Program-made: the position numbers and the translations under genes
Source: Eutreptiella sp. 'Long Island Sound 2002'
Lineage: Eukaryota; Euglenozoa; Euglenophyceae; Eutreptiales; Eutreptiaceae
Length of the DNA: 64,000 nucleotides
Assembly: GCA_964036045.1 (NCBI GenBank)
Contig: OZ038392.1
Span: 39,495,806-39,559,805, forward strand
Direction of reading: 5' to 3'
Shown here: one piece after another, positions 9,270-62,723 of the stretch
Layout of the letters: each line of letters opens with the position of its first letter
Position numbering within the stretch: the first letter of the stretch is position 1
Notes under the pieces: generated by a model
Told to the model about the DNA's origin: nothing
The model's input: the letters and a program-made list of their open reading frames with translations, nothing else
Databases searched by the model: none

Positions 9270-9618
9270 CCAAATGGAGGGCTCTTCCTCGTCACCAGGG
9301 GGCCCTTCAGTTTCCCCCTCGGGGCCCGGCGCGCCCGGCGCTACACCCTCCACGGCCGAGGCCGGGGGGCAGCCGTCGCCGCTCCAGGCCCTTGATGAGC
9401 AGGAGAAGTTCCGCGTGGCGCTGGTGTATGGCAGTGTGTCGCGTGCGTGGCCGGCGGACTTGCTGCCGCGCCTCTTGGACTCACTGGCGTTAACCGCGGA
9501 GTATCGTGAGGCGGTGGCAGCGCACGATTTTGAGGAGGTGCCTGCGGACTGTCTCATGGGCATGTCCCCGGACATCAAAGAGGCCATCCTGATGCAGCTG
9601 CTGGCGGGGGCTTTGCAG
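9270..9618 (+). CDS. TMCO4: Exon 4: TMCO4-like N-terminal helical region
   Basis: Preceded by a long pyrimidine tract and CACCACAG. An ATG at 9274 in good context (CAAATGG) could be the protein start if upstream exons are a different gene or UTR. Phase 2 entry from exon 3 is also possible. A Ser/Pro/Gly-rich leader is followed by ALDEQEKFRVALVYGSVSRA and LLPRLLDSLALTAEYREAV, ending ILMQLLAGALQ at CAG|gtgccg (phase 0). Order and spacing match the helical N-terminal part of the TMCO4/DUF726 family (an 'FAYAALCG'-type segment before a YDA motif). Confidence comes from the next exons. Confidence 0.75.
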
Positions 9619-11073
9619 GTGCCGCGACCCACACACCGCCCCGCCCCGGCCCCGTGCGACGCTTCCCGCATCGGATGTGCTGGCGAGCGCCCCCCCAAAT
9701 GGCGTTGTTGTTGGGGCTGACTGACGGTGAAGCCTCTGCCGCAAAGGGGGCAGTGCTGCTGCCCCATCGTGAGCACTGAGACAGACAGGCCCCTCTCACC
9801 CACAGTGCGGTATCGGGTGCTGGGCTGATTTTTTGGGGGCACCAACCTCTTTGTTTTGGGGGGCCTCTGACCCCCCCCCCCCGTTTGTTGTATGCAGTAA
9901 CCACCGGAACACAGACCTGAACCCACTGGGTTTGTCAATTGAAGGACCACAACGAAGCCCGGCCTCCGTGGGCCGAGGGAGGCCAGCCAAAGCACACCCA
10001 AATCAGGAGTGCCCGCTCACCGGTGTGCACGCCCAACCCCGTGGAGTCCGAGCCACCGCAACCCGAGCCACTCAGGGAGGGCGGCAGGCCAGAACACATC
10101 GGTGGACCTGAGAGCACTGGCAGCGCGAAGCGTGGGCAGTAGGCGATGAACGTCGCGGGGGAGCAGAGGCGGCCAGGGCCTAATGCGGACCTGACCATTG
10201 AAGCCCCACCCCCCGGGGGGTAGGGGACGATGGTCCCTGAGCGACGGTCTGTGCCGGGCAGCAAACCCGGTGCCCAGTGCTGTACCCGTCACTTGTTCGC
10301 CCCGTCACCTGTTCGTATACATTCGAGTCCTGTCGTGCCATGGGCCATGTGTACTGACGGGGCTTTGTCTACGCGTGGGATCTGCGTCTCACGTTTTGCC
10401 TGTTTGCCTGAATTTGGCCGTGCCCGTCAAAATGGAACAGGGGACTAGTACCACCAACGCCCAAAAAGGTCCGGACAAAGTCGAAGGAGGCAGCTGCTGC
10501 ACGACGAGGCGGGCCTGAGCCCCATCCGAAACCACCCGACCGCCCCCCTCGTCTGCCCCACAGGCCATCGTCGGGGGACACGGGCTGACACACACGCCAG
10601 CAGTCCGCTCCAACGTGCGCCTTGCGAGCCCGGCCTACAGCGACACGCACCGGGACGTGCCACGGCACCGCCCGAAGCATCGGCCGTCTACAGTCCAGAG
10701 GCACGCCTCCGCACAGCACAACCGAAGTGCGTTGCAGCGAAAGCACCCACCGCCAAACCCGTTCCACCCCCCAACCGCCGATTTACGGGGCAACCGGTTC
10801 TGTTGGGGGGTGCCCCCGAAAGGCGCCGTGCAGTACACCCGGTGTAAAGTGCCGTATCTCTTGTGCTCGGGGTTGCCCTTGGCTGTCGGGAAGTCAGTGC
10901 GGCGCACCCTCCCCTTGTCATCACTGCATATCCCCTGCACCCCCTTCCTCCACCCGCTGCTTGTGACTCAGCGGGCGGATAGCCACGCCACCCCGCCAAC
11001 CCCCCCCCCCTTCCTGCCTGCTCATCGCTGCCCCCCCCTCCCGCCCTCCTCAGCTCTCTCCTCCCTCCTCAAG
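9619..11073. other. Intron 4
   Basis: About 1.45 kb with C tracts at 9872 and 11009. It ends CTCCTCAAG at 11073. Open frames inside (10198-10518, 10615-11388) show no recognisable domain apart from the exon at their 3' end. Confidence 0.6.
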
Positions 11074-11359
11074 GGCGGTGGCTACGACGCGCATGTGCGC
11101 GCGTCCCTGCGGCGCCTGGCAGCGGCACTGCAGATCCCGTGGCAGACCGTGAGCCGAATGGAGAAGATGATGGCGCTCACGCTTTTGGAGAACATTCCCG
11201 ACGGATCCAAGTCCCCCAACGCCAACAGCGGCAACACGTCCTCCTCCAACCGCTGGCTCAAGGTGGGGCTCGGGGCCATTGCGGGCGGCAGTTTGGTCGT
11301 GCTCACAGGGGGCCTCGCTGCCACGGTGCTGCTGCCGGCGGTGGGGACGATGCTCGGAG
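11074..11359 (+). CDS. TMCO4: Exon 5: TMCO4-like YDA motif and first membrane segment
   Basis: Phase 0 entry. GGYDAHVRASLRRLAAAL corresponds to the family's YDAR motif and helical bundle. After a short Asn/Ser linker comes a glycine-rich hydrophobic stretch (WLKVGLGAIAGGSLVVLTGG) that matches the family's conserved 'GLA.GGG..GVTGGLAAP' membrane-inserting hairpin. Ends at GGAG|gtatgg, phase 1. Predicted location is an internal membrane. Confidence 0.88.
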
Positions 11360-12042
11360 GTATGGGAGGGCGGAGGGAAGAGAGGTAGAGCGCAGTACCC
11401 GCGGGGGTCTGGGGGTGCGGGATGGGGTGAGCATTTGAGGCCGCGTGCCTGGGGCCTGTCAGGGCCAAGGGGGAACTACACGTGCCACTAGCGTCCGGCA
11501 GGTCAGGACAGGCCACGGCTGCTTGGCGACCGTGACCTATACCGGGGGGGGGGGGGGTCAGAGGCCAAAGCAAAAGTTTGTGGACCTAAAATCGACCTCC
11601 AATTGCGGGCCCCTTTGATAAGTTTCACTTTTTTCATGAGAACAAATTGTCTGACGTGGGGGCGTGGGGGGGTGAGTGGTCAGGCGGAGGGGCCCAGGCT
11701 GCCATTCCGCCCCCCCCCCCCCCCCTGGGCTCTCAGCCCGTCTCCCCGCATTAGGAAACAGGGCTGCCATGCCACCCCCCCATCCAACCCCCCACCAGCC
11801 CAATCCCAGGCCCCCACCACCCGTTAACCGGGTCACTGTAGTAACGCCTGATGCCTGACCAGGAGGTCCCCAGTTCGAATCCCAGAAGGGGCATCAGTGA
11901 TAATGCTAAGCCATCCCGAGCGCTGAGGTGTCCTCATCGACGAGCCGCAAAGGACTAATACCGATTTCGCTGGTCCAGAGATCGCGGGGGTATTCCGCAT
12001 TTCCCTCACCGCCTGTCGTCTCTGGCAATCCCACGCTCGCAG
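11360..12042. other. Intron 5 with a tRNA-like SINE fragment
   Basis: Contains G and C homopolymers (11545, 11709) and a tRNA-like B-box region at about 11835-11960. Ends CGCTCGCAG. Confidence 0.7.
11835..11965 (+). mobile_element. tRNA-derived SINE-like fragment
   Basis: An internal RNA polymerase III B-box (AGTTCGAATCCC near 11872) follows plausible A-box-like sequence, then GGGGCATCAGTGATAATG. The body resembles the element at 27230-27450, which shares the B-box and a downstream 'GAGCGCTGAGGTGTC'-like versus 'AGGCGCTAGGGTGTC' block. No intact tRNA cloverleaf could be drawn. Confidence 0.5.
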
Positions 12043-12320
12043 GTGTGGCCACCGCCGCCACCGCCGCGGGGTTCTCCAGCCTCGCGGCCGTTGTGGGCAC
12101 CACCGGAGCGCTCGTGGCCGCCCATTTGACCATCCCCACCATCGCCGCCATCTTCGGCGTCGTGGGAACGGGGCTCTCCGGCTACAAAATGGCCCAGCGC
12201 ACCGCGGGGCTGCAGCAGTGCGAGTTCCAGCCTCTGCGCCACACGGAGCCGCCGCAGATCCCGGGGATCGATCCGCGGGAGGTCGCGGGAGAGCGCGCGG
12301 GCTCTCTGTTTGCAGCGCAG
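12043..12320 (+). CDS. TMCO4: Exon 6: TMCO4-like second membrane segment
   Basis: Phase 1 entry (G|GT gives Gly). A long Ala/Gly/Val/Thr hydrophobic hairpin (GFSSLAAVVGTTGALVAAHL, then PTIAAIFGVVGTGLSGYKM) ends with the GYKM signature that follows the membrane hairpin in TMCO4 proteins. CEFQPL then matches the conserved 'EF.F.PL' strand that normally leads straight into the hydrolase. Here the hydrolase continuation (LHVTIAVTGF) is not found until 36.5 kb. Ends at GCGCAG|gtttgg, phase 0; the last ~30 codons after QPLRH are less certain. Confidence 0.88.
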
Positions 12321-23714: not shown

Positions 23715-24011
23715 TCCCGCGCGGGGTACCTCGTGGAGCCGGGCCGGGGCGTCATCACCGGCAACAACGTGCGGGCCCACATCAAGACCCGCTACAACGA
23801 CCGGGCCTCCGTCGTGGTGGCGCTGCAGAACCGCAGCCGCCGGCCCCTGCAGCACCTGTGGCACGGGTTCATCGACGAGCAGGTGGGCGAGTGGGCCCTG
23901 CGGCCCCCGAGCGTCGTCCCCGCGGAGACCGACGGGGTGTTCGCGGTCGTGCGGCTGCCGGCGCGCAAGGGCGAGTGGGGGGTCTTCGTGGCGGCCGTGT
24001 ACTGTTGTGAG
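23715..24011 (+). CDS. Exon 7: actinoporin-like beta-sandwich, copy A first half
   Basis: Entry after TCCCCCAG, phase 0, matching the end of exon 6. Contains NVRAHIKTRYNDRASVVVAL and NRSRRPLQHLWHGFIDEQVG, then EWALRPPSVVPAETDGVFAV and WGVFVAAVY. The order [V/I]AL-x-N-x-S, LQ, F..G.W...PP, then a G-V-x-Y strand repeats in copies B and D. It follows the strand order of actinoporin-type cytolysin folds (PF06369-like), a membrane-binding beta-sandwich. Two donors keep phase 0 (23997 and 24012); I chose GAG|gtgtgc. Similarity is by eye and no activity is claimed. Confidence 0.65.
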
Positions 24012-24474: not shown

Positions 24475-24589
24475 GGCTTTGAACTCCTGTGCACTTGTGA
24501 AATCGCCCTCGTCGGGGGCAGCAAGGGCGCCGTGGAGATGTATCCCCCGGGCTTCTTCTCGAGCATCGCATTCCCCGACGTTGACGCCG
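24475..24589 (+). CDS. Exon 8: copy A, central strands
   Basis: Phase 0 entry. FELLCTCEIALVGGSKGAVE then MYPPGFFSSIAFPDVDA. This aligns position by position with FMVCCAFERPVVEANKTYAE and VGPPNAF of copy B (28949 exon): F-x-(L/V)-x-C, E, V, K, PP, F. Ends at GCCG|gtaatg, phase 1. Confidence 0.7.
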
Positions 24590-25010: not shown

Positions 25011-25174
25011 ACAAGGGCGACGCGCTGTCCGTTCTGGACGGCAACTCCGGCGCCCATGACCCCGACGAGGCCAACGCGGCCCCTCCGTTCAAAGTGGCTG
25101 TGTCGCCGAAGTGCGTGGACCTCATTCAGGCCCACGCCCGGAAGGTGGCCGCCAACATGACCGAGAAGAGGAAG
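25011..25174 (+). CDS. Exon 9: copy A, C-terminal helix region
   Basis: Phase 1 entry. KGDALSVLDGNSGAHDPDEA, then PPFKVAVSPKCVDLIQAHA and KVAANMTEKRK. The VSPKCVDL block is shared with exon 1 (VTPQDCDD) and with LPKAIEFAI at 29751, marking the same position in each copy. Ends at GGAAG|gtctgc, phase 0. Confidence 0.68.
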
Positions 25175-27579: not shown

Positions 27580-27908
27580 TTGTCCGGCATTGGCTCTGCT
27601 GTCGCACCGGACCGGCACTCCCCCGCCTCCTGCACTTTCAAGGACTCGATCTTCGTGTCCAAAACTGCCGACGGGACTCAGCACAAGTACAACGTCAAGT
27701 CGGAGGGAGGAGCGCGGCAGACGATCAGCGTTGCCTACGTCGAGGAGGGCAAGGGCAGTTTGGGGCTGCTGGTGCCTGCGGCCGAAGCCGAGAAGACGTT
27801 GGACGCGGTGTACCGGGACATCAAGGCCAAGCGGGTGCTTGCGATGGCGGTCATCAACAACACCTTGAGCCCATTGAAGTTGAAGGGGATTCTGTGGTTT
27901 GGGGGCAA
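27580..27908 (+). CDS. Exon 10: actinoporin-like copy B, N-terminal part
   Basis: Phase 0 entry after CGGACAG (a weak acceptor; the real start could be at 27531). CTFKDSIFVSKTADG, then ARQTISVAYVEEGKGSLGLL, EKTLDAVYRDIKAKRVLAMA and INNTLSPLKLKGILWFGGK. The RDIKAKRVLAMAVINNTLSP block pairs with QEIRMTLNARRTQAIALKNT of copy D: an N-terminal amphipathic helix followed by the first sandwich strand. Ends at GGCAA|gtatgt, a near-perfect donor, phase 2. The open frame runs on to 28074 if unspliced. Confidence 0.7.
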
Positions 27909-28948: not shown

Positions 28949-29182
28949 GTGGAACAGCAAGTATCACCCATCCAACCGCATCCCTGTCCACCAGGCCGCA
29001 TGCATGGGGGTGGAGAGCAAGCACTTCATGCCAGAGATCATCCATGGCGTCATGCTGTATGAGGGGCGGGGCTTCATGGTCTGTTGTGCGTTTGAGAGGC
29101 CGGTGGTGGAGGCCAATAAAACATACGCGGAGGTTGGCCCGCCTAACGCCTTTTCGGTCCAGGACCCCACGCTGTTGGACAG
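28949..29182 (+). CDS. Exon 11: actinoporin-like copy B, central strands
   Basis: Strong acceptor TTTTTGCAG, phase 2. Begins WNSKYHPSNRIPVHQAACMG, then EIIHGVMLYEGRGFMVCCAF and PVVEANKTYAEVGPPNAF. It joins exon 10 so that FGG(K)W..Y.PS.RI lines up with FSYGRWTFEPPTEI of copy D. HGVMLYE..GFMVCCAF lines up with GVEGVVVY..DLFVVVCVF. Ends at GGACAG|gtccgt, phase 2. Alternative phase-0 donors exist at 29133 and 29157. Confidence 0.7.
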
Positions 29183-33790: not shown

Positions 33791-33829
33791 TTTTTTCAAA
33801 AAGATTAACAAAAAATTACATTTTATTGA

Positions 33830-36459: not shown

Positions 36460-36588
36460 GAGGCTGTTGAGCGCGCACTCAGCCAGGCACGGGGTGACAA
36501 GGAGACGTCATCACTGCACGTAACCATTGCCGTGACGGGGTTCATTCTCAATGACGACCTCAGCCTGACGCCCAATGAGTTGCAGGAG
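36460..36588 (+). CDS. TMCO4: Exon: start of TMCO4/DUF726 hydrolase domain
   Basis: Phase 0. EAVERALSQARGDKETSS leads into LHVTIAVTGFILNDDLSL. L-H-[VI]-T-I-A-V-T-G is the opening strand of the DUF726 alpha/beta-hydrolase region and normally follows the EF.F.PL strand seen in exon 6. Ends at GCAGGAG|gtgtgt, phase 0. The unspliced frame continues to a TAA at 36730. Confidence 0.85.
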
Positions 36589-36931: not shown

Positions 36932-37130
36932 GCGTTCTGGAAGGTCTGCCTGCGTGAAGCGCCGTGTCAGACGTGGTACGCGGACTCCTACTGTCTTGTT
37001 TGGGAGACGGACAAGCAGCTGAGGCTCGGGCAGTGGCTTGAGGAGGAGATCAGCATCACGGAGCTTGCCGTCCGGGCTGGCGTGTCCCACGGCGCCAAGC
37101 ACACCACCACCACCGCGTTGGCCACCATTG
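36932..37130 (+). CDS. TMCO4: Exon: TMCO4 hydrolase, W..Y.LVWE region
   Basis: After TTTCGGTGGCAG, phase 0. AFWKVCLREAPCQTWYADSY then CLVWETDKQLRLGQWLEEEI matches the family's 'Y.L.WE...L..LG..L' signature. HGAKHTTTTALATIG corresponds to the 'A.K.T....' helix. Two donors 9 bp apart (37131 and 37140) both leave phase 1. I list the first; the second adds Thr-Ala-Gly. Confidence 0.88.
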
Positions 37131-40673: not shown

Positions 40674-40847
40674 GTAAACGCCCCGTCACGCTCATCGCCT
40701 TCGGCCTCGGGGGCACCGTTGTGTTTGAGTGCCTGCTGCAGCTTGCGCATCAGAACAAACTGGATATTGTCGACAGCGCCTTCCTGATGGGGGCCTGCGT
40801 GACCAACGACCGCCTCAAATGGCAGCAGGCCCGAAACGCTGTTGCAG
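40674..40847 (+). CDS. TMCO4: Exon: TMCO4 nucleophile-elbow region, Ser replaced by Gly
   Basis: Phase 1. KRPVTLIAFGLGGTVVFECL, then QLAHQNKLDIVDSAFLMGAC and VTNDRLKWQQARNAVA. RPVTLIGFSLGARV is the usual DUF726 nucleophile elbow (G-x-S-x-G). Here it reads A-F-G-L-G, with GGC where an AGC or other Ser codon is expected. The 'GIIEDV.LLGAPV' strand is represented by DIVDSAFLMGACV. Ends at GTTGCAG|gtccta, phase 1, followed by an 18.6 kb intron. Confidence 0.92.
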
Positions 40848-41487: not shown

Positions 41488-41570
41488 CACGCCTGCTTGT
41501 TTTGGTCGTGACATCTCATTCTTTGGTGTTGTTTGGTGAGTTGCTGTTACCTTTTGTTAGTGGTGTTGTG

Positions 41571-41842
41571 TTGTTGTGTTGTGTTGTGTTGTGTTGTGTT
41601 GTGTTGTGTTGTGTTGTGTTGTGTTGTGTTGTGTTGTGTTGTGTTGTGTTGTGTTGTGTTGTGTTGTGTTGTGTTGTGTTGTGTTGTGTTGTGTTGTGTT
41701 GTGTTGTGTTGTGTTGTGTTGTGTTGTGTTGTGTCGTGTCATGTTGTGTCGTGTCATGTCGTGTCGTGTAATGTCGTGTCGTGTTGTGTCGTGGGGTGCT
41801 GTTTGGTGTTGTGCTGTGTTGTGTTGTGTTGTGTTGTGTTGT
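41571..41842 (+). repeat. (GTGTT)n microsatellite with GTGTC variants
   Basis: About 32 perfect GTGTT units, then GTGTC/ATGTC variants, then GTGGGGTGCTGTTTGGTG and more GTGTT. The block and its 3' flank (GCCGAAGGCGCTGTTACC) are repeated at 56824-57230. Confidence 0.95.
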
Positions 41843-42134
41843 GCCGAAGGCGCTGTTACCAAAAGGCAAAGGCCGGGATGTCTACCCACGGGTACAGGTA
41901 AACGGGCTGGGCTGTGTGTGTTGTGTGCGCGCTGTGTGTATGTGTGTTGTGGCATAGCCGGACCAGTGCACTCTCGCACTTGGCCGACACTGCCTTGCCG
42001 ACGCCTGCGCGCAGTCACACAGGGTCTCATTTGCCCACTGCACCCTGCGTGCCGCGCTGCACCACCAGTGCCTGCTGTGTGGTGCCGCACTGCTTGGTGC
42101 TCTGCACCACACTGCACTGTGTGTGCCCTGCTGC

Positions 42135-43792
42135 ACTGTTGTTGTGGGCAGGGGGCAGTGGGCAGTGGAACTCCTGCAACGCACTGCCGCACTGCCTGGG
42201 GGCAGTGGGCAGTGGACCTCCTGCAATGCACTGCCCCACTGCCTGGGGGCAGTGGGCAGTGGACCTCCTGCAATCCACTGCCTCACTGCCTGGGGCAGTG
42301 GGCAGTGCAACTCCTGCAATGCGCTGCCTCACTGCCCGGGGGCAGTGGGCAGTGCAACTCCTGCAATACACTGCCCCACTGCCTTGGGGCAGTGGGCAGT
42401 GGACCTCCTGCAATACACCGCCCCACTGCCTGGGGGCAGTGGGCAGTGGACCTCCTGCAATACACTGCCGCACTGCCTGGGGGCAGTGGGCAGTGGACCT
42501 CCTTCTATGCACTGCTCCACTGCCTGGGGGCAGTGGGCAGCGGACCTCCTGCAACACACTGCCTCACTGCATGGGGGCAGTGGGCAGTGGACCTCCTTCA
42601 ATGCACTGCCCCACTGCCCGGGGGCAGTGGGCAGTGGACCTCCGGCAATACACTGCCTCACTGCCTGGGGGCAGTGGGTAGTGCAACTTCTGCAATGCAC
42701 TGCCTCACTGCCCTGGGGCAGTTGGCAGTGCAACTCCTGCAATGCACTGCCTCACCGCCTGGGGGCAGTGGACAGTGCAACTCCTGCAATGCACTGCCTC
42801 ACTGCCTGGGGGCAGTGGGCAGTGGAACTCCTGCAATGCACTGCCTCACTGCCGGGGGACAGCAGGCAGTGCAACTCCTGCAATGCACTGCCTCACTGCC
42901 TGGGGGCAGTGGGCAGTGCAATTTCTGCAATGCACTGCCTCACTGCCGTGGGGCAGTAGGCAGTGGAACTCCTGCAATGCACTGCCTCACTGCCTGGGAG
43001 CAGTGGGCAGTGCAACTCCTGCAATGCACTGCCTCACTGCCTGGGGGCAGTAGGCAGTGCAACTCCTGCAAAGCACTGCCTCAGTGCCCTGGGGCAGTAG
43101 GCAGTGGAACTCCTGCAATGCACTGCCCCACTGCCTGGGAGCAGTGGGCATTGGAACTCCTACAATGCACCGCCTCACTGCCTGGGGGCAGTGGACAGTG
43201 CAACTCCTGCAATGCACTGCCTCACTGCCTGGGGGCAGTGGGCAGTGCAACTCCCGCAATACACTGCCTCACTGCCTGGGGGCAGTGGACAGTGCAGCTT
43301 CTGCAATGCACTACCCCACCACCTGGGGGCAGTGGGCAGTGGACCTCCGGCAATACACTGCCGCACTGCCTGGGGGCAGTGGGCAGTGCAACTCTTGCAA
43401 TGCACTGCCTCACTGCCTGGGGGTAGTGGGCAGTGCAACTCCTGCAATGCACCGCTGCACTGCCTGGGTGCAGTGGGCAGCGCAACTCCTGCAATGCACT
43501 GCCTCACTGCCTGGGGGCAGTGGAACGCGCAACTCCTGCAATGCACTGCCCCACTGCCTGGGGGCGGTGGGCAGTGGACCTCCTGCAATCCACTGCCTCA
43601 CTGCCTTGGGGCAGTGGGCAGCGCAACTCCTGCAATGCACTGCCCCATTGCCTGGGGGCAGTGGGCAGTGCAACTCCTGCAATGCACTGCCGCACTGTCT
43701 GGGGGCAGTGGGCAGCGCAACTCCTGCAATGCACTGCCTCACTGCCCTGGGCCAGTGGGCACTGCAACTCCTGCAACGCACTGCCTCACTCT
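42135..43792 (+). repeat. 47-bp satellite, block 1
   Basis: Roughly 35 copies (estimated from length) of a 47-bp unit with the parts GGGGGCAGTGGGCAGTG, (C/G)AACTCCTGCAATGCACTGC and CCCACTGCCT. Units differ by a few substitutions, most in fixed alternative forms (GGACCTCC versus CAACTCC; CTCACTG versus CCCACTG). The unit has almost no plus-strand stop, so long false ORFs appear in every frame. Confidence 0.97.
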
Positions 43793-45345
43793 GGTGACCT
43801 GGCACCAGTCTAAAAACCCTCAGGATGGTAGCTGTGGGACGGATTGCCCACACGCACTGCCACGCTCGAAGCCAGTCGTGATACGTCTCGATTTCTCGTG
43901 CGTCTTCCCTGTGTCAGGCCGGGCCCACCCCGCCCGCCAACCGCCCAGGACCCCTCCCTGGGCCAGACATGCAGTCCTGTGGGGGACAGATGCACATACG
44001 TGGCCTCCCCCCGACCGCCGGACGCCAACGTGGCATCTGCCCCGACAGCTCTCCGCCGACATGGCGCGGGCTCAGTGGCAGGGCACTATCGTGGTGCCGC
44101 GAACGTACCCGTGCGCCGTCGTGGCGCGGCCTTCAAGGCAGAGCGCCGTCGTGGCGCGGCCTTCTCGGCAGAGCGCCGCCACGGCGCCGCCCAAACAATC
44201 CAGCGCCAACGTGGCGCCACTTCAGTGGCAGCACACCACCGGGGTGCTGCCAACGTGCACGTGTGCCGCCGTGGCGCAGTGTTCGGGGCACGGCGCCGTC
44301 GTGGCACTGCCCGGACAGCCAGTTCAGTGGCCGAGCGCCATCGTGGTGCCGCCAACGTACACGTGCGCCATCGTGGCGCAATCCTCAGGGCAGAACGTCA
44401 CCGCGGCGCTGCCCAGACAGCCCTGAGCCGACGTGGCGCCAGTTCAGTGACGTGGCACCACCATGGTGCAGTCAACGTACACGTGCGCCGTCGTGGCGCA
44501 ACCTTCAGGGCAGAGCGCCACCGTGGCGCTGCCCAAACGTTCTTCGTGCGCCAGCCTGGCCATGGTGTGTCCTCCAGGCCAATACTCGAGGCACCCTGGC
44601 GGGGTCTGCACTTGGCGCTCCGCCACCCTCCGTGACACCCCGTGCAGAGGTGACGAGTCATCGGCGGTACTCACCGCCTCACGTGCCATCGGCGAACGTC
44701 GCCGTCTCGCTCGGGCACCATCGTGGTGCCACTTTCTCGGTCACGTACCGTCTCGGTGCACGTATCGTAGGGCTCGTCGTTTGGGCTCGGCCTTTGCGGC
44801 AGGGCGTCGTCGGTGACCTCCACAGCGGTGCACCACCGTGGTGCTATGGCTGTGACGCACGTCCCGCACTCACAGAACCCGGGGGTACCCAGGCCACCGG
44901 CGGTGCGCGTGATCGTGTAGCGTGGCCGTACTCGCGACGCCGGCGGTACTCAGCCCGCCGGCAGTGCGCATAGTCGTGCTGGGCCGCGTTCTATTTAGCC
45001 CGGCGACGTTTGCAAGTCGGGGGTGATGCCCCGGGAGACCCACACCTTCCGTGCCCGTTGATCGTGGGACGCTACCTCGGGTGGACCCACGACAGGTCGG
45101 AGCGGTCGGTGGCCGGGACCGGAGAGCAGATCGGACCGTAGCGTTGTCGTACACCGGCGCTTTGACCCAGACGGCCTGCTGGGAGGGGCGTTCTCAGGTG
45201 TGCGACGAGATTCGTCTTACTCTAGCGGAGGTAAGACGGAGGACTCCCTCGGCTGTGCCTGCATGGGGCCCCCGGGGGACGACGCCAAGGCTCACCGTAC
45301 GTGGGACCGCGGCAGGCGCTCCTCCTCCTCCTCCTCCTCCTCCTC
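43793..45345. other. Spacer between satellite blocks with GGCGCCA-type repeats
   Basis: Starts with GTGACCTGGCACCAGT..AACCCTCAGGATGGTAG, shared with 13803. 44040-44560 is a diverged tandem family of ~60-130 bp units rich in CGTCGTGGCGC / GCGCCACGATG palindromic words. 44600-45340 is unique-looking GC-rich sequence ending in (CTC)n. No gene supported. Confidence 0.6.
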
Positions 45346-48300
45346 ACTGCCTGGGGGCAGTGGGCAGTGCAACTCCTGCAATGCACTGCCTCACTGCCTG
45401 GGGGCAGTGGGCAGTGCAACTTTCGCATTGCACTGCCCCACTGACCTGGGGGCAGTGGGCACTGGAACTTCTGCAATGCACTGCCCCACTGCCTGGGGGC
45501 AGTGGGGCAGTGCAACTCCTGCAATACACTGCCGCACTGTCTGGGGACAGTGGGCAGCGCAACTCCTGCAATGCACTGCCGCACGGCCTGGGAGCAGTGG
45601 GCAGCGGAACTCCTGCAATGCACTGCCCCACTGCCTGGGGGCAGTGGGCAGTGCAACTCCTGCAATACACTGCCGCACTGTCTTGGGGCAGTGGGCAGCG
45701 CAACTCCTGCAATGCGCTGCCTCACTGCCCTGAGGTAGTGGGCAGTGGAACTTCTGCAATGCACTGCCCCACTGCCTGGGGGCAGTGGGCAGTGGAACCC
45801 CTGCAATGCACTGCCTCATTGCCCTGGGGGCAGTGGGCAGTGCAATTCCTGCAATGCACTGCCTGACTGCCTGGGGGCAGTGGACAGTGCAACTCCTGCA
45901 ATGCACTGCCTCACTGCCTGGGGCCAGTGGGCAGCGCAACTCCTGCAATGCACTGCCCCACTGCCTGGGGGCAGTGGGCAGTGGACCTCCGGCAATACAC
46001 TGCCGCACTGCCTGGGGGCAGTGGGCAGTGCAACTCCTGCAATGCACTGCCTCACTGCCTGGGAGCAGTGGGCAGTGGACCTCCTGCAATGCATTGCCTC
46101 ACTGCCTGGGGGCAGTGGACAGTGCAACTTCTGCAACGCACTGCCCCACTGCCTGGGAGCAGTGGGCAGTGCAACTCCTGCAATACAGTGCCTCACTGTC
46201 TGGGGGCAGTGGGCAGCGGAACTCCTGCAATGCACTGCCCCACTGCCTGGGGGCAGTGGGCAGTGCACCTCCGGCAATACACTGCCGCACTGTCGGGGGG
46301 CAGTGGGCAGCGGAACTCCTGCAATGCACTGCCCCACTGCCTGGGGGCAGTGGGCAGTGGACCTCCGGCAATACACTGCCGCACTGCCTGGGGGCAGTGG
46401 GCAATGCAACTCCTGCAATGCATTGCCACACTGCCTGGGGGCAGTGGGCAGTGGACCTCCGTCAATACACTGCCTCACTGCCTGGGGCCAGTGGACAGTG
46501 CAACTCCCGCAATGCACTGCCTTACTGCCTTGGGGCAGTATGCAGTGAACCTCCGGCAATACACTGCCTCTCTGCCTTGGGGCAGTGGACAGTGCAACTC
46601 CTGCAATGCATTGCCCCACTGCCTGGGGGCAGTGGGCAGTGCAACTCCTGCAATACACTGCCGCACTGTCTGGGGGCAGTGGGCAGTGCAACTCCTGCGA
46701 CGCACTGCCTCACTGCCTGGGGGCAGTGCACAGTGGAACTCCCGCAATGCACTGCCCCACTGCCTGGGGGCAGTGGGCAGTGCAACTCTTGCAATACAGT
46801 GCCGCACTGTCTGGGGGCAGTGGACAGTGCAACTCCTGCAATGCACTGCCCCACTGCCTGGGGGCAGTGGGCAGTGCAACTCCTGCAATGCACTGCCTCA
46901 CTGCCTGGGGGCAGTGGGCAGTGCAACTCCTGCAATGCACTGCCACACTGCCTGGGGGCAGTGGGCAGTGGACCTCCTGCAATACACTGCCTCACTGCCT
47001 GGGGCCAGTGGACAGTGCAACTCCTGCAATGCACTGCCTTACTGCCTGGGGGCAGTAGGCAGTGGACCTCCGGCAATACACTGCCTTACTGCCTGGGGGC
47101 AGTTGACAGTGCAACTCCTGCAATGCACTGCCCCACTGCCTGGGGGCAGTGGGCAGTGCAACTCCTGCCATACACTGCCGCGCTGTCTGGGGGCAGTGGA
47201 TAGTGCAACCCCTGCGACGCACTGCCTCACTGCCTGGGTGCAGTGGACAGTGGAACTCCCGCAATACACTGCCGCACTGTCTGGGGGCAGTGGGCAGTGC
47301 AACTCCTGCAATACACTGCCGCACTGTCTGGGGGCAGTGGACAGTGCAACTCCTACAATGCACTGCCCCACTGCCTGGGGGCAGTGGGCAGTGGACCTCC
47401 GGCAATACACTGCCGCACTGCCTGGGGGCAGTGGGCAGTGCAACTTCTGCAACGCACTGCCCCACTGCCTGGGGGCAGTGGGCAGTGGACCTCCGGCAAT
47501 ACACTGCCTCACTGCCTGGGGGCAGTGGGCAGTGCAACTCCCGCAATGCACTGCCTTACTGCCTGGGGGCAGTAGGCAGTGGACCTCCGGCAATACACTG
47601 CCTCACTGCCTGGGGGCAGTGGGCAGTGCAACTCCCGCAATGCACTGCCTTACTGCCTGGGGGCAGTAGGCAGTGGACCTCCGGCAATACACTGCCTCAC
47701 TGCCTGGGGGCAGTGGGCAGTGGACCTCCTGCAATACACTGCCTTACTGCCCGGGGGCAGTAGGCAGTGGACCTCCGGCAATACACTGCCTCACTGCCTG
47801 GGGGCAGTAGGCAGTGCAACTCCTGCAATGCACTGCCTCAGTGCCCTGGGGCAGTAGGCAGTGGAACTCCTGCAATGCACTGCCCCACTGCCTGGGAGCA
47901 ATGGGCAGTGGAACTCCTACAATGCACCGCCTCACTGCCTGGGGGCAGTGGACAGTGCAACTCCTGCAATGCAGTGCCTCACTGCCTGGGGGCAGTGGGC
48001 AGTGCAACTCCCGCAATACACTGCCTCACTGCCTGGGGGCAGTGGACAGTGCAACTTCTGCAATGCACTACCCCACCACCTGGGGGCAGTGGGCAGTGGA
48101 CCTCCGGCAATACACTGCCGCACTGCCTGGGGGCAGTGGGCAGTGCAACTCTTGCAATGCACCGCTGCACTGCCTGGGTGCAGTGGGCAGCGCAACTCCT
48201 GCAATGCACTGCCTCACTGCCTGGGGGCAGTGGACCGCGCAACTCCTGCAATGCACTGCCCCACTGCCTGGGGGCGGTGGGCAGTGGACCTCCTGCAATG

Positions 48301-51300
48301 CACTGCCTCACTGCCTTGGGGCAGTGGGCACCGCAACTCCTGCAATGCACTGCCCCATTGCCTGGGGGCAGTGGGCAGTGCAACTCCTGCAATGCACTGC
48401 CGCACTGTCTGGGGGCAGTGGGCAGTGCAACTCCTGCAACGCACTGCCTCACTGCCTCGGGGCAGTGGGCAGTGCAACTCCTGCAATGCACTGCCTCACT
48501 CCCTGGGGGCAGTGGGCAGTGCAACTTTCGCATTGCACTGCCCCACTGACCTGGGGGCAGTGGGCACTGGACTTTCTGCAATGCACTGCCCCACTGCCTG
48601 GGGGCAGTGGGCAGTGCAACTCCTGCAATACACTGCCGCACTGTCTGGGGACAGTGGGCAGCGCAACTCCTGCAATGCACTGCCGCACTGCCTGGGAGCA
48701 GTGGGCAGCGGAACTCCTGCAATGCACTGCCCCAATGCCTGGGGGCAGTGGGCAGTGCAACTCCTGCAATACACTGCCGCACCGTCTTGGGGCAGTGGGC
48801 AGCGCAACTCCTGCAATGCGCTGCCTCACTGCCCTGAGGTAGTGGGCAGTGCAACTCCTGCAATACACTGACTCACTGCCTGGGGGCAGTGGACAGTGCA
48901 ACTTCTGCAATGCACTACCCCACCACCTGGGGGCAGTGGGCAGTGGACCTCCGGCAATACACTGCCGCACTGCCTGGGGGCAGTGGGCAGTGCAAGTCTT
49001 GCAATGCACTGCCTCACTGCCTGGGAGCAGTGGGCAGCGCAACTCCTGCAATACACTGCCTCACTGCCTGGGGGTAGTGGGCAGTGCAACTCCTGCAATG
49101 CACCGCTGCTCTGCCTGGGTGCAGTGGGCAGCGCAACTCCTGCAATGCACTGCCTCACTGCCTGGGGGCAGTGGACCGCGCAACTCCTGCAATGCACTGC
49201 CCCACTGCCTGGGGGCGGTGGGCAGTGGACCTCCTGCAATCCACTGCCTCACTGCCTGGGGGCAGTGGGCACCGCAACTCCTGCAATGCACTGCCCCATT
49301 GCCTGGGGGCAGTGGGCAGTGCAACTCCTGCAATGCACTGCCGCACTGTCTGGGGGCAGTGGGCAGTGCAACTCCTGCAACGCACTGCCTCACTGCCTGG
49401 GGGCAGTGGGCAGTGCAACTCCTGCAATGCACTGCCTCACTCCCTGGGGGCAGTGGGCAGTGCAACTTTCGCTTTGCACTGCCCCACCGACCTGGGGGCA
49501 GTGGGCACTGGACTTTCTGCAATGCACTGCCCCACTGCCTGGGGGCAGTGGGGCAGTGCAACTCCTGCAATACACTGCCGCACTGTCTGGGGACAGTGGG
49601 CAGCGCAACTCCTGCAATGCACTGCTGCACTGCCTGGGAGCAGTGGGCAGCGGAACTCCTGCAATGCACTGCCCCAATGCCTGGGGGCAGTGGGCAGTGC
49701 AACTCCTGCAATGCACTGCCTCACTGCCTGGGGGCAGTGGGCAGTGCAATTTCTGCAATGCACTGCCCCACTGCCTGGGGGCATGGGGCAGTGGAACCCC
49801 TGCAATGCACTGCCTCACCTCCCTCGGGGGCAGTGGGCAGTGCAATTCCTGCAATGCACTGCCTGACTGCCTGGGGGCAGTGGACAGTGCAACTCTTGCA
49901 ATGCACTGCCTCACTGCCTGGGGCCAGTGGGCAGCGCAACTCCTGCAATGCACTGCCCCACTGCCTGGGGGCAGTGGGCAGTGGACCTCCGGCATTACAC
50001 TGCCGCACTGCCTGGGGGCAGTGGGCAGTGCAACTCCTGCAATGCACTGCCTCACTGCCTGGGAGCAGTGGGCAGTGGACCTCCTGCAATGCATTGCCTC
50101 ACTGCCTGGGGGCAGTGGACAGTGCAACTTCTGCAACGCACTGCCCCACTGCCTGGGAGCAGTGGGCAGTGCAACTCCTGCAATACACTACCTCACTGTC
50201 TGGGGGCAGTGGGCAGCGGAACTCCTGCAATGCACTGCCCCACTGCCTGGGGGCAGTGGGCAGTGGACCTCCGGCAATACACTGCCGCACTGTCTGGGGG
50301 CAGTGGGCAGCGGAACTCCTGCAATGCACTGCCCCACTGCCTGGGGGCAGTGGGCAGTGGACCTCCGGCAGTACACTGCCGCACTGCCTGGGGGCAGTGG
50401 GCAGTGCAACTCCTGCAATGCACTGCCACACTGCATGGGGGCAGTGGGCAGTGGACCTCCGGCAATACACTGCCTCACTGCCTGGGGCCAGTGGACAGTG
50501 CAACTCCCGCAATGCACTGCCTTACTGCCTTGGGGCAGTAGGCAGTGAACCTCCGGCAATACACTGCCTCACTGCCTGGGGGCAGTGGACAGTGCAACTC
50601 CTGCAATGCATTGCCCCACTGCCTGGGGGCAGTGGGCAGTGCAACTCCTGCAATACACTGCCGCACTGTCTGGGGGCAGTGAACAGTGCAACTCCTGCGA
50701 CGCACTGCCTCACTGCCTGGGGGCAGTGCACAGTGGAACTCCCGCAATGCACTGCCCCACTGCCTGGGGGCAGTGGGCAGTGCAACTCTTGCAATACAGT
50801 GCCGCACTGTCTGGGGGCAGTGGACAGTGCAACTCCTGCAATGCACTGCCCCACTGCCTGGGGGCAGTGGGCAGTGCAACTCCTGCAATGCACTGCCTCA
50901 CTGCCTGGGGGCAGTGGGCAGTGCAACTCCTGCAATGCACTGCCACACTGCCTGGGGGCAGTGGGCAGTGGACCTCCTGCAATACACTGCCTCACTGCCT
51001 GGGGCCAGTGGACAGTGCAACTCCTGCAATGCACTGCCTTACTGCCTGGGGGCAGTAGGCAGTGGACCTCCGGCAATACACTGCCTTACTGCCTGGGGGC
51101 AGTGGACAGTGCAACTCCTGCAATGCACTGCCCCACTGCCTGGGGGCAGTGGGCAGTGCAACTCCTGCCATACACTGCCGCGCTGTCTGGGGGCAGTGGA
51201 TAGTGCAACCCCTGCGACGCACTGCCTCACTGCCTGGGTGCAGTGGACAGTGGAACTCCCGCAATACACTGCCGCACTGTCCGGGGGCAGTGGGCAGCGC

Positions 51301-53003
51301 AACTCCTGCAATACACAGCCGCACTGTCTGGGGGCAGTGAACAGTGCAACTCCTGCAATGCACTGCCCCACTGCTTGGGGGCAGTGGGCAGTGGACCTCC
51401 GGCAATACACTGCCGCACTGCCTGGGGGCAGTGGGCAGTGCAACTTCTGCAACGCACTGCCCCACTGCCTGGGGGCAGTGGGCAGTGGAACTCCTGCAAT
51501 GCACTGCCTCACTGCCTGGGGGCAGTGGACAGTGCAACTCCCGCAATGCACTGCCTTACTGCCTGGGGGCAGTAGGCAGTGGACCTCCGGCAATACACTG
51601 CCTCACTGCCTGGGGGCAGTGGGCAGTGCAACTCCCGCAATGCACTGCCTTACTGCCTGGGGGCAGTAGGCAGTGGACCTCCGGCAATACACTGCCTCAC
51701 TGCCTGGGGGCAATAGGCAGTGGACGTCCCGCAATGCACTGCCTTACTGCCTGGGGGCAGTGGGCAGTGCAACTCCTGCAATGCACTGCCACACTGCCTG
51801 GGGGCAGTGGACAGTGCAACTCCTGCAATGCACTGCCCCACTGCCTGGGGGCAGTGGGCAGTGCAACTCCTGCAATACACTGCCGCACTGTCTGGGGGCA
51901 GTGGACAGTGCAACTCCCGCAATGCACTGCCCCACTGCCTGGGGGCAGTGGGCAGTGCAACTCCTGCAATACACTGCTGCACTGTCTTGCGGCAGTGGAC
52001 AGTGCAACCCCTGCAATGCACTGCCCCACTGCCTGGGGGCAGTGGACAGTGCAACTCCTGCAATGCACTGCCCCACTGCCCGGGGGCAGTGGGCAGTGCA
52101 ACTCCTGCAATACACTGCCCCAGTGCCTTGGGGCAGTGGGCAGCGCAACTCCTGCAACGCACTGCCTCACTGCGTGGGAGCAGTGGGCAGTGCAACTCCC
52201 GCAATACACTGCCTCACTGCCTTGGGGCAGTGGGCAGCGCAACTCCTGCAACGCACTGCCTTACTGCCTGGGAGCAGTGGGCCGTGCAACTCCTGCAATG
52301 CACTGCCTCACTGCCTGGGGGCAGTGGGCAGTGCAACTCCTGCAACGCACTGCCTCACTGCCTGGGAGCAGTGGGCAGTGCAACTCCCGCAATGCACTGC
52401 CACACTGCCTGGGGGCAGTGGGCAGTGCAACTCCTGCAATACACTGCCCCACTGCCTTGGGGCAGTGGGCAGCGCAACTCCTGCAACGCACTGCCTCACT
52501 GCCTGAGAGCAGTGGGCAGTGCAACTCCTGCAATGCAGTGCCTCACTGCCTGGGGGCAGTGGGCAGTGCAACTCCTGCAAAGCACTGCCTCACTGCCTGG
52601 GAGCAGTGGGCAGTGCAACTCCCGCAATGCACTGCCCCACTGCCTGGGGGCAGTGGGCAGTGCAACTCCTGCAACGCACTGCCTCACTGCCTGGGAGCAG
52701 TGGACAGTGCAACTCCTGCAATGCACTGCTCCACTGCCTGGGGGCAGTGGGCAGTGCAACTCCTGCAATACACTGCCCCAGTGCCTTGGGGCAGTGGGCA
52801 GCGCAACTCCTGCAACGCACTGCCTCACTGCCTGGGAGCAGTGGGCAGTGCAACTCCTGCAATGCACTGCCTCACTGCCTGGGGGCAGTGGGCAGTGCAA
52901 CTCCTGCAACGCACTGCCTCACTGCCTGGGAGCAGTGGGCAGTGCAACTCCCGCAATGCACTGCCTCACTGCCTGGGGGCGTGGGCAGTGCAACTCCTGC
53001 AAT
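45346..53003 (+). repeat. 47-bp satellite, block 2
   Basis: Same unit as block 1, roughly 160 copies. Higher-order structure is visible: 45.8-47.7 kb and 49.8-51.6 kb are nearly identical at an offset of exactly 4000 bp. 45.4-45.7 kb recurs at 48.5 and 49.5 kb. 43.0-43.8 kb of block 1 recurs near 47.8-48.5 kb. Confidence 0.97.
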
Positions 53004-55654: not shown

Positions 55655-55657
55655 CCC

Positions 55658-56823: not shown

Positions 56824-57230
56824 TGTGTTGTGTTGTGTTGTGTTGTGTTGTGTTGTGTTGTGTTGTGTTGTGTTGTGTTGTGTTGTGTTGTGTTGTGTTG
56901 TGTTGTGTTGTGTCGTGTCATGTCGTGTCGTGTCGTGTCGTGTCGTGTTGTGTCGTGGGGTGCTGTTTGGTGTTGTGCTGTGTTGTGTTGTGTTGTGTTG
57001 TGTTGTGTTGTGTTGTGTTGTGTTGTGTTGTGTTGTGTTGTGTTGTGTTGTGTTGTGTTGTGTTGTGTTGTGGTGTGTTGTGTTGTGTTGTGTTGTGGTG
57101 TGTTGTGTTGTGTTGTGTTGTGTTGTGTTGTGTTGTGTTGTGTTGTGTTGTGTTGTGTTGTGTTGTGTTGTGCCGAAGGCGCTGTTACCAGAAGGCAATG
57201 GCCGGGATGTCTACCCGCAGGTACAGGGAG
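56824..57230 (+). repeat. (GTGTT)n second copy plus flank
   Basis: Same order as 41571-41900: GTGTT run, GTGTC variants, GTGGGGTGCTGTTTGGTG, GTGTT run (longer here, with GTGGT interruptions), then GCCGAAGGCGCTGTTACC and GGCCGGGATGTCTACCC. Confidence 0.95.
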
Positions 57231-58466: not shown

Positions 58467-58502
58467 CGCCGATAGGTCATGGAACCAAATGCCCGGTTTG
58501 AC

Positions 58503-58990: not shown

Positions 58991-59013
58991 GCAGCGTATT
59001 CGGGGGCTGGCAG

Positions 59014-59103
59014 CTGTTGTGTTGTGTTGTGTTGTGTTGTGTTGTGTTGTGTTGTGTTGTGTTGTGTTGTGTTGTGTTGTGTTGTGTTGTGTTGTGTTGT
59101 GTT
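59014..59103 (+). repeat. (GTGTT)n third copy
   Basis: About 18 perfect GTGTT units, directly followed by a switch to GGGTT. It lacks the GCCGAAGGCG flank found at the other two copies. Confidence 0.95.
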
Positions 59104-59159
59104 GGGTTGGGTTGGGTTGGGTTGGGTTGGGTTGGGTTGGGTTGGGTTGGGTTGGGTTG
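59104..59159 (+). repeat. (GGGTT)n tract
   Basis: Eleven GGGTT units formed by one T-to-G change of the neighbouring GTGTT unit, then return to GTGTT-like sequence up to 59260. Confidence 0.95.
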
Positions 59160-59430
59160 TGTTGCGTTGTGTTGTGCTGTGTTTAGTTGGGTTGTGCTGT
59201 GTTGTGTTGTTGTGTTGTGTTGTGTTGTGCATTTTGGTGTGTTGTGCTGCATTGTGTTGTAGTACTGCATACTGCACAGTATGCTGTATGGTTTCAACTG
59301 TATGCAGTGTGCTGTGTGCTGCCCTCTGAAATGATAGTGTCCACATGCATGTTGCATCACTGCCAACATGCCTACTGGCACGCTGACCGCGCACTACACC
59401 ACTCCGCCATCCCTGGTCCCCAATGCTTAG

Positions 59431-59621
59431 GGCGCTTCGTCAACGTGTACAGCACCAAGGACTGGTTTTTGGGCCTGCTGTGCAACGGTGCGGCCCTGAG
59501 CGTTTCCGGGACCGCAGGGCTGCAGAAAGTCACTGGTGTACCAGGGCTGGAGAACGTGGACGTGAGCCATACTGTGCAAGACCATTTGGATTATTGGTAC
59601 CGCACGGAGGACATCATGCAG
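59431..59621 (+). CDS. TMCO4: Exon: TMCO4 hydrolase C-terminal block with catalytic His region
   Basis: Phase 1 entry restores AVAG|RFVN across the 18.6-kb intron. RFVNVYSTKDWFLGLLCNGA, LSVSGTAGLQKVTGVPGLEN and VDVSHTVQDHLDYWYRTEDI match the TMCO4 order 'GR.[IV]N.Y...DW.L...YR....V.GL......V.NVD......HLDY'. The His of HLDY is kept, although the nucleophile is lost. Ends at ATGCAG|gtctcc, phase 0. Confidence 0.93.
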
Positions 59622-60492: not shown

Positions 60493-60772
60493 GCGATTCC
60501 TGCCCAGCCCGATTTCCGGACGTTGAGCCAGGACGTGTCCACTCCCGGATTTGTGGTGCCTGTGCACCGTTACCTGCCGGTGCTGCAAGAGATTAGGATG
60601 ACCCTCAACGCACGCCGGACGCAGGCCATCGCCCTTAAAAACACAAGCCCCTACCACCTGCAATACGTCTCATCGCAATTCAGCTACGGACGCTGGACAT
60701 TCGAGCCCCCAACTGAAATAGCGTCAGGAGAGTGCGGTATCATGGGGGCCTGCAGTACTGGCGCTGCCTCAG
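60493..60772 (+). CDS. Exon: actinoporin-like copy D, first half
   Basis: Phase 0. PVHRYLPVLQEIRMTLNARR then TQAIALKNTSPYHLQYVSSQ, FSYGRWTFEPPTEIASGECG and IMGACSTGAAS. An amphipathic N-terminal helix, first strand with a K-N-T-S turn, F..G.W, PP and I follow the actinoporin-type layout and match copies A and B. It joins in phase directly after the hydrolase exon, so this copy sits at the C-terminus. Ends at CCTCAG|gtcatg, phase 1. Confidence 0.75.
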
Positions 60773-61005
60773 GTCATGCAGGACTCGGCAGTCGCGTGTG
60801 CCCCCACCTACACGTGCGCGTGTGTGGGTGCGCAAGTGTGTGTGTTTGATTGTGTGTGTGTGCCTGTGTGCATGTGTGGCACGGTGGGCGCACAGTGCCA
60901 TTCAGCGAGCATGCTCCATTACCCCCCGTGCATCAAAAAAGACGACGGGTTTCATCCACCAGCAAATAAATTTTTTTCCGCGTCAGCGCTGTTGCCACGA
61001 GGCAG
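60773..61005. other. Intron with GT-rich repeat
   Basis: 233 bp with TGTGTG-type simple sequence and a T7 tract before a GGCAGCAG tandem acceptor (61005 or 61008). Confidence 0.65.
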
Positions 61006-61164
61006 CAGTCCTGTGCTGGCTTGCCAAACACGCATTTTGGAGGGGGAACCGGTATTCCACATGGCACCTGCCCGAACACCTGTCCCCCAATGGAATCCCT
61101 GGTGTCTGGTGCGAGGATCTGCAGCACCGGTCTGTGGAGGATGGCTTTGCCTCTCAGCCAGATG
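61006..61164 (+). CDS. Exon: copy D, inserted loop
   Basis: Phase 1. LCWLAKHAFWRGNRYSTWHL then SPNGIPGVWCEDLQHRSVED and GFASQPDG. The phase fits both sides. Copies A and B lack this loop. The tandem NAG acceptor would add or drop one residue. Ends at CAGATG|gtagag, phase 1. Confidence 0.6.
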
Positions 61165-62611
61165 GTAGAGCCGCAGCTCTTGGAGGGTCTCCGCCTTGGC
61201 GCCCTTTGGGCTTTGAGGAGTGCGCATGGAGCCTCCACGCCGGCATCACTGGCCCCTGTGCTGGCCCACAGGATGGCTGAACTGCTGGCCCCTTTGCTGT
61301 GGCATACAGGGCCATTGTTGTGCTGGCAGCCACTGTCCTCCAGCGCACCGGGTCGTCATTGAGATACCGGCCCTTGTGCTGCGACATACAGCGCCATGGC
61401 TGCGCTGCTGGCTGCTATGTGTGGGTGCACAGGGTAATGGTTAACCTGCAGGCTCCTGTGCTTTGGTCTATGGGGGGAAGTTAGGGGATCCAAGCTACAC
61501 CCAAGTCCCCCTGTGTGGGGGATAGGCACACCCCGCGGAGGAGTGAGGAGGTGTGTGATGGGTCCCTCCCAGCGCCACCTACACCCGAGTCCCGCCAAGT
61601 GGGGGATAGGGACGGCCGCTGGAGGGGTAGAGAGGTTGGTGAGGGGCCCCTCCCAGCGCCGGCTACACCCCCACCCCAGGGGGGAGGTTGTGGGTGATGG
61701 GTCCCTCCCAGTGCTGGCTGCCCCTGAGTCCCCCGTGTGGGGGATAGGGACGGCCCAGGGAGGGGTGGCGAGATTGGCGTCTGAGACTCGGGACCCGCGG
61801 ATCGCCGGGGGACGGGCTGGCGGCACGACTTGCTGCTGGCCACCCTGCGCATGGCCGGGGTTCAGGCCTGGGTCACGTACCAGCTACTGGGGCAAGCGCT
61901 TCGGCTGTCCCAGTGATGACTCGGCGCACCCGCTGCCCTTAGGACCGGGGAGGGAGGTGATCCCCTGAAGGACTTCGTGGCTGCGGGCACGAGGCCTGTG
62001 CGGGGTGCGGGGGGGTGCGGAACTGGGTGACGGACTAGGCCCCTGAGACTCGCCGCCCAAACGCCGCCCTTCGGTAGTACCTGGCGGCCTGGGGGCTGAC
62101 ACCCGAGCGCTGTGAGTCATCCGTAATCCCAGGGGGGGCTGGCCGGGGACCGGAAGTGGAGCCAGGGTCATGGACACGCACCCCCCTACCGTCAGTGCAT
62201 GGTCCAGGTTTTTGAATGAGTTAACACAGAAATTGATTGCAGAGATCAATTCAACAAAATTCCACCAGGAAAAGTGCTGAAAGACGTTGATCACAGTTCA
62301 TAGGTTCGCAGGAATAAGCTCATTTGTGGCCTCCTAACGGATTAGCAGGGGCATGCTTACCTTACCTCCTGGACACCAGAGGACCATCCTGAGATTCACG
62401 TTTCTGCCTTGACAAATCCCAAGTACACCCATGCGTTTTACACGTGACCGTCTTCCTGTTCTTTGGCACACACATGTCCCTCGAGTCTCTGTGGTAAAGC
62501 TGAGTGGAGGGACTCAGAACTTCTGGAAATCTTCTTCCATATTCTTCACCAAGGCATTCAGGATAGTGTCTGTTGAGTTTTTCCAGCGGCCCATGCGTCC
62601 CTTTATCTCAG
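61165..62611. other. Intron with 61.5-61.75 kb tandem repeat
   Basis: 1.45 kb. Four imperfect units of ~60-65 bp (GGGGATAGG(G/C)AC, GGTGATGGGTCCCTCCCAG) lie at 61500-61790. Ends CCCTTTATCTCAG. Confidence 0.65.
61500..61790. repeat. Minisatellite, ~60-bp units
   Basis: Units carry CCCGAGTCCC, a GTGGGGGATAGG block, a GGAGGGGT block and GATGGGTCCCTCCCAGCGC, with about 75-85% similarity by eye. Confidence 0.75.
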
Positions 62612-62723
62612 GTGTCGAAGGTGTTGTTGTGTATCGAGAAGCCCAAGACCTTTTTGTGGTGGTGTGTGTCTTCTGCAACCCCTTCGTCGGCAGTTTCAAG
62701 TGCTACGCCACCGTCAAGCCCAA
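62612..62723 (+). CDS. Exon: actinoporin-like copy D, central strands
   Basis: Phase 1: G|GT gives Gly of GVEGVVVYREAQDLFVVVCV, then FCNPFVGSFKCYATVK. G-V-x-G-V-V-V-Y followed by a hydrophobic strand and N-P matches the conserved G-A-V-G-V-type strand and adjoining membrane-facing loop of actinoporin-type domains. It aligns with copy B GVMLYE..GFMVCCAFERP. Ends at CCCAA|gtgtgt, phase 2. If unspliced it would stop at 62793. Confidence 0.72.

Follow-up and report, generated by a model that had tools for sequence, protein, structure and literature searches.

The question raised by a stretch of 64,000 nucleotides from the euglenophyte Eutreptiella sp. 'Long Island Sound 2002' is whether a single gene there joins a hydrolase of the DUF726/TMCO4 family, a lipase-like family widespread among eukaryotes, to repeated beta-sandwich modules of the actinoporin/aegerolysin fold, which is best known from toxins and lysins, and what such modules might do in that setting. 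The whole stretch, hereafter the window, is C15:39495806-39559805 of a 2.28-Gb assembly of 2205 contigs, with introns and gene content that mark it as eukaryotic, and a preliminary description of it had proposed an apparent fusion of this kind. Our interpretation, to which we assign a probability of roughly 60%, is that one gene encodes a hydrophobic N-terminal block, two sandwich modules, an alpha/beta-hydrolase and two more modules, the paired modules serving for docking and the hydrolase as a scaffold. Sequence comparison supplies the foundations: a phase-consistent gene model, an order of domains conserved in independent proteins, the fold class of the modules, and a glycine at the position of the hydrolase nucleophile.

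Gene model and sandwich copies

A DUF726/TMCO4 gene lies on the plus strand, where eight exons (E1 to E8, Table 1) join through GT-AG introns into an open protein of 591 residues. The joined protein matches PF05277 (DUF726) at E 2.5e-59 (201.4 bits against a cut-off of 22.6, profile positions 4-337 of 343), and single exons match the same profile in order, first in the hydrophobic N-terminal block and then in the hydrolase. With the sandwich copies included, the model has 15 exons; each of its 14 introns is GT-AG, and the phases agree at all junctions. Copies A and B lie inside the 24-kb intron between E3 and E4 and copy D follows the hydrolase; a second long intron, of 18.6 kb, separates E7 from E8.

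The preliminary description had recognized the DUF726 blocks, which are recovered both exon by exon and in the joined model, and had stated that copy A joins the N-terminal exon, and copy D the hydrolase exon, in phase; both junctions (12320/23715 and 59621/60493) are indeed 0/0. Its placing of the copies also stands, but its exon layout needed revision, since A, B and D are each divided over two exons, with the GV..Y part of B at 28949-29132 and the end of A at 24475-24589, and the exon ending at 12320, which it numbered sixth, keeps its junction but is the third in the present model. Some exon ends were picked with phase in view, so that phase is consistent with the model and is not independent evidence for it. 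A direct splice from 12320 to 36460 is also 0/0, and phase alone therefore does not decide between inclusion and skipping of A and B.

The copies were sought with a hidden Markov model (HMM) of the module from which the window's own rows had been removed. This independent HMM is the family profile A7 reduced to the rows P0001, P0026, P0067 and L020, all described below, with columns that had been aligned while the window rows were present, and it was run against 2191 six-frame open reading frames (ORFs) of at least 25 residues from the window and 30 kb downstream. The five top matches, in the order D1, A1, B2, D2 and B1, are all on the plus strand and all within the gene, and on this evidence the proposed copies A, B and D are real. 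The sixth match (E 0.011) is a plus-strand exon downstream, at window coordinates 71859-72080 (C15:39567664-39567885), the seventh (E 0.18) is an unrelated minus-strand frame, and the best match in a reversed-protein control had E 3.3. As D2 ends in phase 2 the protein should continue beyond it, and the gene seems to extend out of the window, with a probable fourth copy about 8 kb past its end.

Relatives with the same architecture

Proteins of the DUF726 family were surveyed in a long-protein search with an X-padded query, which returned 171 proteins at E<=1; the best 120 of the 171 were examined, and an earlier module profile, A4, was applied as an HMM to 124 DUF726 proteins. The module was found in three of the 124, namely P0001 (5.8e-50, a value inflated because P0001 is itself a row of A4), P0026 (1.5e-34) and P0067 (1.3e-25), and the next best protein had E 3.1. 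P0001 is a EukProt entry of 564 residues, named like a transcript assembly product, in which the hydrolase passes straight into a D-like module through a junction region held in common with the E8-D1 splice of the window. A protein search with the tail of P0001 found only P0001 itself.

P0026 (1286 residues, EukProt PhF_6) and P0067 (1488 residues, from ENA, on an 816-kb contig) share one order: N-terminal block, module, module, hydrolase, module, module. In P0026 the block occupies residues 114-148 and 206-268, the modules 278-389, 447-486, 886-1001 and 1134-1189, and the DUF726 hydrolase stretch 696-886; the corresponding parts of P0067 are 211-303 and 307-370 for the block, 392-499, 591-676, 1075-1171 and 1312-1374 for the modules, and 896-1073 for the hydrolase stretch. 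Window exons E2 and E3 match both proteins directly before module 1. The second modules score weakly (E 0.11 in P0026, 0.47 in P0067) and owe their recognition to their position no less than to these values. The tag PhF_6 agrees with clone PhF-6, from which we infer that P0026 comes from Apiculatamorpha spiralis, a free-living prokinetoplastid whose culture fed on another kinetoplastid (PMC7859406).

The proposed fusion of DUF726 and sandwich modules thus recurs, with the same architecture, in P0026 and P0067. In a tree of the hydrolase (53 of 126 rows) the window protein groups with P0001 (99/94) and P0026 with P0067 (97/94), the joining branch is weak (56/34) and several branches are long; judged from these sequences, the tree settles neither one origin against two nor whether the window protein, P0001, P0026 and P0067 form one clade. 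The identical order and positions of the modules argue for a single origin of the module-hydrolase fusion.

The copies themselves have diverged widely. A search of the same genome with D1 recovers D1 and, beyond it, five places with E no better than 0.8, so that divergence among the copies is too great for such a search to link them. When positional orthology was tested pairwise, with copies A and B and the downstream copy included, the one clear match was that of D1 to module 3. The linker between modules (P0001 residues 340-564; P0026 395-445) looks recurrent, with a helix followed by a hairpin containing a Trp, and may be a second small module; the linkers did not align cleanly in a comparison that did not include window exon 25011-25174, and for that reason no second domain is claimed.

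Fold class of the modules

Against the PDB, profile A7 finds the aegerolysin Cry34Ab1 at 9.9e-11, bryoporin at 5.3e-4, fragaceatoxin C/FraE at about 3e-3 (FraC 2.9e-3) and equinatoxin II at 0.012-0.024. Profile A11, which lacks L020 and one weak row, keeps Cry34Ab1 (1.7e-10) and bryoporin (4.6e-4), with equinatoxin at 0.79 and fragaceatoxin absent at E<=1. The reversed-sequence control of A4 gave 0 matches at E<=10. A Foldseek search with a structure model of P0001 returned actinoporins, Cry34Ab1, Nakanori and ostreolysin/pleurotolysin A at ranks 1-34, with 14 rows at E<=0.001. Profile comparison assigns the modules to the actinoporin/aegerolysin superfamily, although Pfam places them in neither PF06369 nor PF06355. 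The cytolysin-type fold named in the preliminary description is therefore upheld, and its label of actinoporin-type holds at the level of the superfamily, but the nearest relative by sequence is Cry34Ab1 and not a sea-anemone actinoporin; likewise, of the two Pfam families that it put forward for checking, PF05277 was matched but PF06369 was not.

Two results weigh against our interpretation. The Foldseek matches have low template modelling scores (TM-scores) and come from a model, of middling confidence, of the relative P0001 and not of the window protein; and single copies compared with Pfam at a maximum E of 10 matched neither PF06369 nor PF06355, in searches where the filters of HMMER discard the majority of matches weaker than about E 0.1. 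Single window exons matched no sandwich family among the Pfam matches listed and gave only chance-level matches to the PDB by phmmer. The P0001 module meets the Nakanori family PF21230 at E 0.19, its 12 bits lying below the cut-off of 27, and a first structure model from 10 rows (mean predicted local distance difference test score, pLDDT, 46.9) was of no use for the sandwich, which emerged only with the multi-copy profiles and a second model.

The fold by itself does not show pore formation. The profile covers approximately the first 110 of the 175-190 residues of an actinoporin, the matched part ending before the C-terminal third. The hydrophobic moment of the helix before the sandwich, taken over segments picked by eye, falls within that of shuffled sequences for seven of eight copies (89 to 486 of 500 shuffles as high) and lies above most of them for copy B (19/500). 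Where the preliminary description spoke of a pore-former-type fold on a membrane-anchored hydrolase relative, the fold class stands, whereas pore formation is unsupported, and 'membrane-anchored' is not secure because a 2024 classification reports no transmembrane element in human TMCO4 (PMC11878206).

The hydrolase and its nucleophile

At the nucleophile elbow (GxSxG) a Ser stands in 123 of 126 aligned sequences, and Gly takes this position in the window protein, in its plain paralogue on C13 and in P0004. The conserved Asp (126/126) and His (125/126), at triad positions that we chose, are both present in the window protein. Because the Gly is common to two paralogues a base error is unlikely, and the hydrolase of this species is probably inactive, a reading of its sequence that carries a directly testable prediction, namely that esterase activity will be lacking in this species. 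The C13 paralogue (L001:1432-3270, minus strand) is an intronless, plain DUF726 protein of 612 residues in which no sandwich modules are seen by eye. Another DUF726 protein (L002, on C2011, a 53-kb contig), with an open frame of 706 residues and, by eye, an elbow without Ser, could belong to a different organism.

Other genes bearing the module

An intronless open frame of 550 residues on the minus strand of C7 (L020:280-1932; C7:2268040-2268267 and flanks) carries the module upstream of a zinc-ribbon-like stretch and of RPC34, a subunit of RNA polymerase III (PF05158, E 1.3e-22). This frame was first met at E 0.80; a profile built without it recovers it at E 2.6e-13 among 123 sequences, against E 11 for the reversed frame. 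By these matches the same genome places the module next to a further, unrelated protein. On the minus strand of C6 (C6:134673110-134695127; L029, L030 and L032) four exons are 41-52% identical to residues 42-232 of L020, in order over 22 kb, which identifies this locus, at the level of sequence, as a gene that carries the module and is interrupted by introns. No RPC34 match better than E 0.077 lies within 67 kb below its last domain exon, where one match on the right strand has E 0.30.

What the modules may do

We propose that the protein would work inside the cell on an organelle membrane, where the paired sandwiches, as modules that bind lipid head groups or proteins, would direct the hydrolase domain to a specific membrane or contact site. 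The hydrolase of this species would act as a scaffold, relatives that keep the Ser may still cut lipid, and the modules would not be expected to form pores as actinoporins do. Docking to a lipid head group or a protein is favoured over pore formation because the helix in most copies is not amphipathic beyond chance. Two known systems may be counted in support by analogy. Human TMCO4, which has been called an orphan lipase and is orthologous to yeast Mil1, is diffuse in HeLa cells and is recruited to the endoplasmic reticulum by RAB18 (PMC10641524), and the VAB repeats of VPS13 share the topology of lysins, recognize Pro-X-Pro motifs and failed to bind membranes in flotation assays (PMC8978259).

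The VAB repeats also lend themselves to a different explanation, unlikely in our estimation but with a real chance of being right, in which the modules are pure protein-binding units that bind short receptor motifs and never touch lipid. The flotation results on VAB modules are in keeping with it, as is the occurrence of the module beside RPC34, but no VAB match is listed for P0026 or P0067 in Pfam, or for A7 or A11 in the PDB, and the closest sequence relatives of the modules are membrane-binding proteins. That kinship could instead be taken to mean that the modules are true membrane-acting lysins, which insert into or oligomerize on the cell's own organelle membrane, or on a target membrane, while the hydrolase acts on exposed lipid. 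The fold and profile similarity to Cry34Ab1 and to bryoporin, a moss pore-former (PMC9526159), speaks for such an activity, which nonetheless appears quite improbable: most of the helices are not amphipathic, the modules come in pairs within a larger protein, and the same module also precedes an RNA polymerase III subunit, a setting in which a pore-forming role is difficult to imagine. That a separate sandwich-module gene is nested in the 24-kb intron, with TMCO4 splicing 12320 directly to 36460, gains something from the phase of that splice and from the plain C13 paralogue, but it is very improbable and was rejected, because P0026 and P0067 carry two modules between N-terminal block and hydrolase within single proteins and P0001 has the hydrolase-D junction.

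A fold of the toxin type is here built into a conserved eukaryotic protein that appears to be intracellular, and it occupies matching positions in distant relatives, so that it may also be of use to ordinary cells for docking in their interior. This offers a handle on how TMCO4/Mil1 proteins choose their membranes, on the roles of aegerolysin-like domains inside cells, and on how the fold moved between docking and pore formation. A bolder proposal, speculative and on present evidence doubtful, is that the actinoporin/aegerolysin fold goes back to early eukaryotes as a module of the cell interior, where pairs of it would target or remodel the cell's membranes. The four-module TMCO4 relative, its hydrolase turned into a scaffold, would then be a dedicated organelle-membrane tether, and secreted pore-formers would be one specialized branch of a use on the cell's own membranes.

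Features of the locus

The features of the gene are collected in Table 1. Elsewhere in the window, long arrays resembling simple repeats or minisatellites, which show up as repeated peptides among the ORFs, lie at 41560-53000 (in the E7-E8 intron), 2880-3200, 56900-57200 and 59030-59260.

Table 1. Exons of the gene model, in window coordinates; HMM, the independent module HMM.
Feature	Position	Strand	Evidence
E1, N-terminal region	9274..9618	+	open frame, donor GT, ends in phase 0; start ATG inferred
E2, start of hydrophobic DUF726 N-terminal block	11074..11359	+	PF05277 E 0.0037, profile 4-44; P0067 211-303 E 1.7e-18
E3, second part of N-terminal block	12043..12320	+	PF05277 E 4.7e-6, profile 24-93; matches P0067 307-370, P0026 206-268; ends in phase 0
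A1, helix region and most strands of copy A	23715..24011	+	HMM E 8.5e-8; phase 0/0
A2, last strand of copy A, weakly supported	24475..24589	+	aligns with P0001 module end; tblastn E 39; not found by HMM; AG/GT, phase 0/1
Linker exon between A and B, inferred, weakly supported	25011..25174	+	AG/GT, phase 1/0
B1, linker end, helix and first strands of copy B	27643..27908	+	HMM E 1.1e-3; phase 0/2
B2, W..P and GV..Y part of copy B	28949..29132	+	HMM E 5.6e-5; phase 2/0; 3' end chosen for phase, inferred
E4, first hydrolase strand	36460..36588	+	part of joined model matching PF05277; phase 0/0
E5, hydrolase	36932..37130	+	part of joined model; phase 0/1
E6, hydrolase helices	39480..39650	+	PF05277 E 2.3e-4, profile 167-219
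E7, nucleophile elbow with Gly in place of the usual Ser	40674..40847	+	PF05277 E 2.7e-16, profile 212-275
E8, hydrolase end with conserved Asp and His	59431..59621	+	PF05277 E 2e-14, profile 275-339
D1, copy D	60493..60772	+	HMM E 1.8e-18; P0001 protein crosses same junction
D2, copy D	62612..62723	+	HMM E 3.5e-4; phase 1/2

Comparison with known systems

Cry34Ab1 (PF06355; PDB 4jox) is a single-domain protein of 123 residues, unlike the four copies set here in a large hydrolase protein, and single copies have no listed match to its Pfam family. The actinoporins, moss bryoporin included (PF06369), resemble the modules in the bryoporin profile match and in the Foldseek matches; they differ in that the sea-anemone members are matched only when the profile includes L020 and one weak row, in the profile's coverage, in the helix, which here is mostly not amphipathic, and in the lack of a PF06369 match. 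Nakanori (PF21230), titled a lipid-binding protein, is alike by Foldseek (E 1.4e-3) and by the weak, sub-threshold Pfam match of the P0001 module, and we know of no hydrolase partner for it.

Pairs of such domains within larger eukaryotic proteins have a precedent in the apicomplexan prototype MAL13P1.321, where two aegerolysin domains are joined to HEPN (PMC3710099); the partner there is different and there is one pair only. The VAB region of VPS13, a membrane-contact protein, is alike in its repeated modules of lysin-like topology but has six of them, which bind Pro-X-Pro (PMC8978259), and shows no listed sequence match to the present modules; a VAB structure is not among the PDB matches listed for A7 and A11, which does not exclude a relation. 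With DUF726/TMCO4/Mil1 proteins (PF05277) the window protein shares the N-terminal block, the alpha/beta-hydrolase and the conserved Asp and His, whereas its sandwich modules are additional and its nucleophile Ser is replaced by Gly. The extra domains of the family given in the DUF726 section of the 2024 classification include none of this kind (PMC11878206), and no description of a sandwich-hydrolase combination appeared in the titles and abstract openings of the open-licence PMC papers found. The combination, of which the preliminary description knew no described example, is thus undescribed in the literature searched but is not confined to this genome, being present in P0001, P0026 and P0067 as well, and the architecture is a new, conserved combination of known domains.

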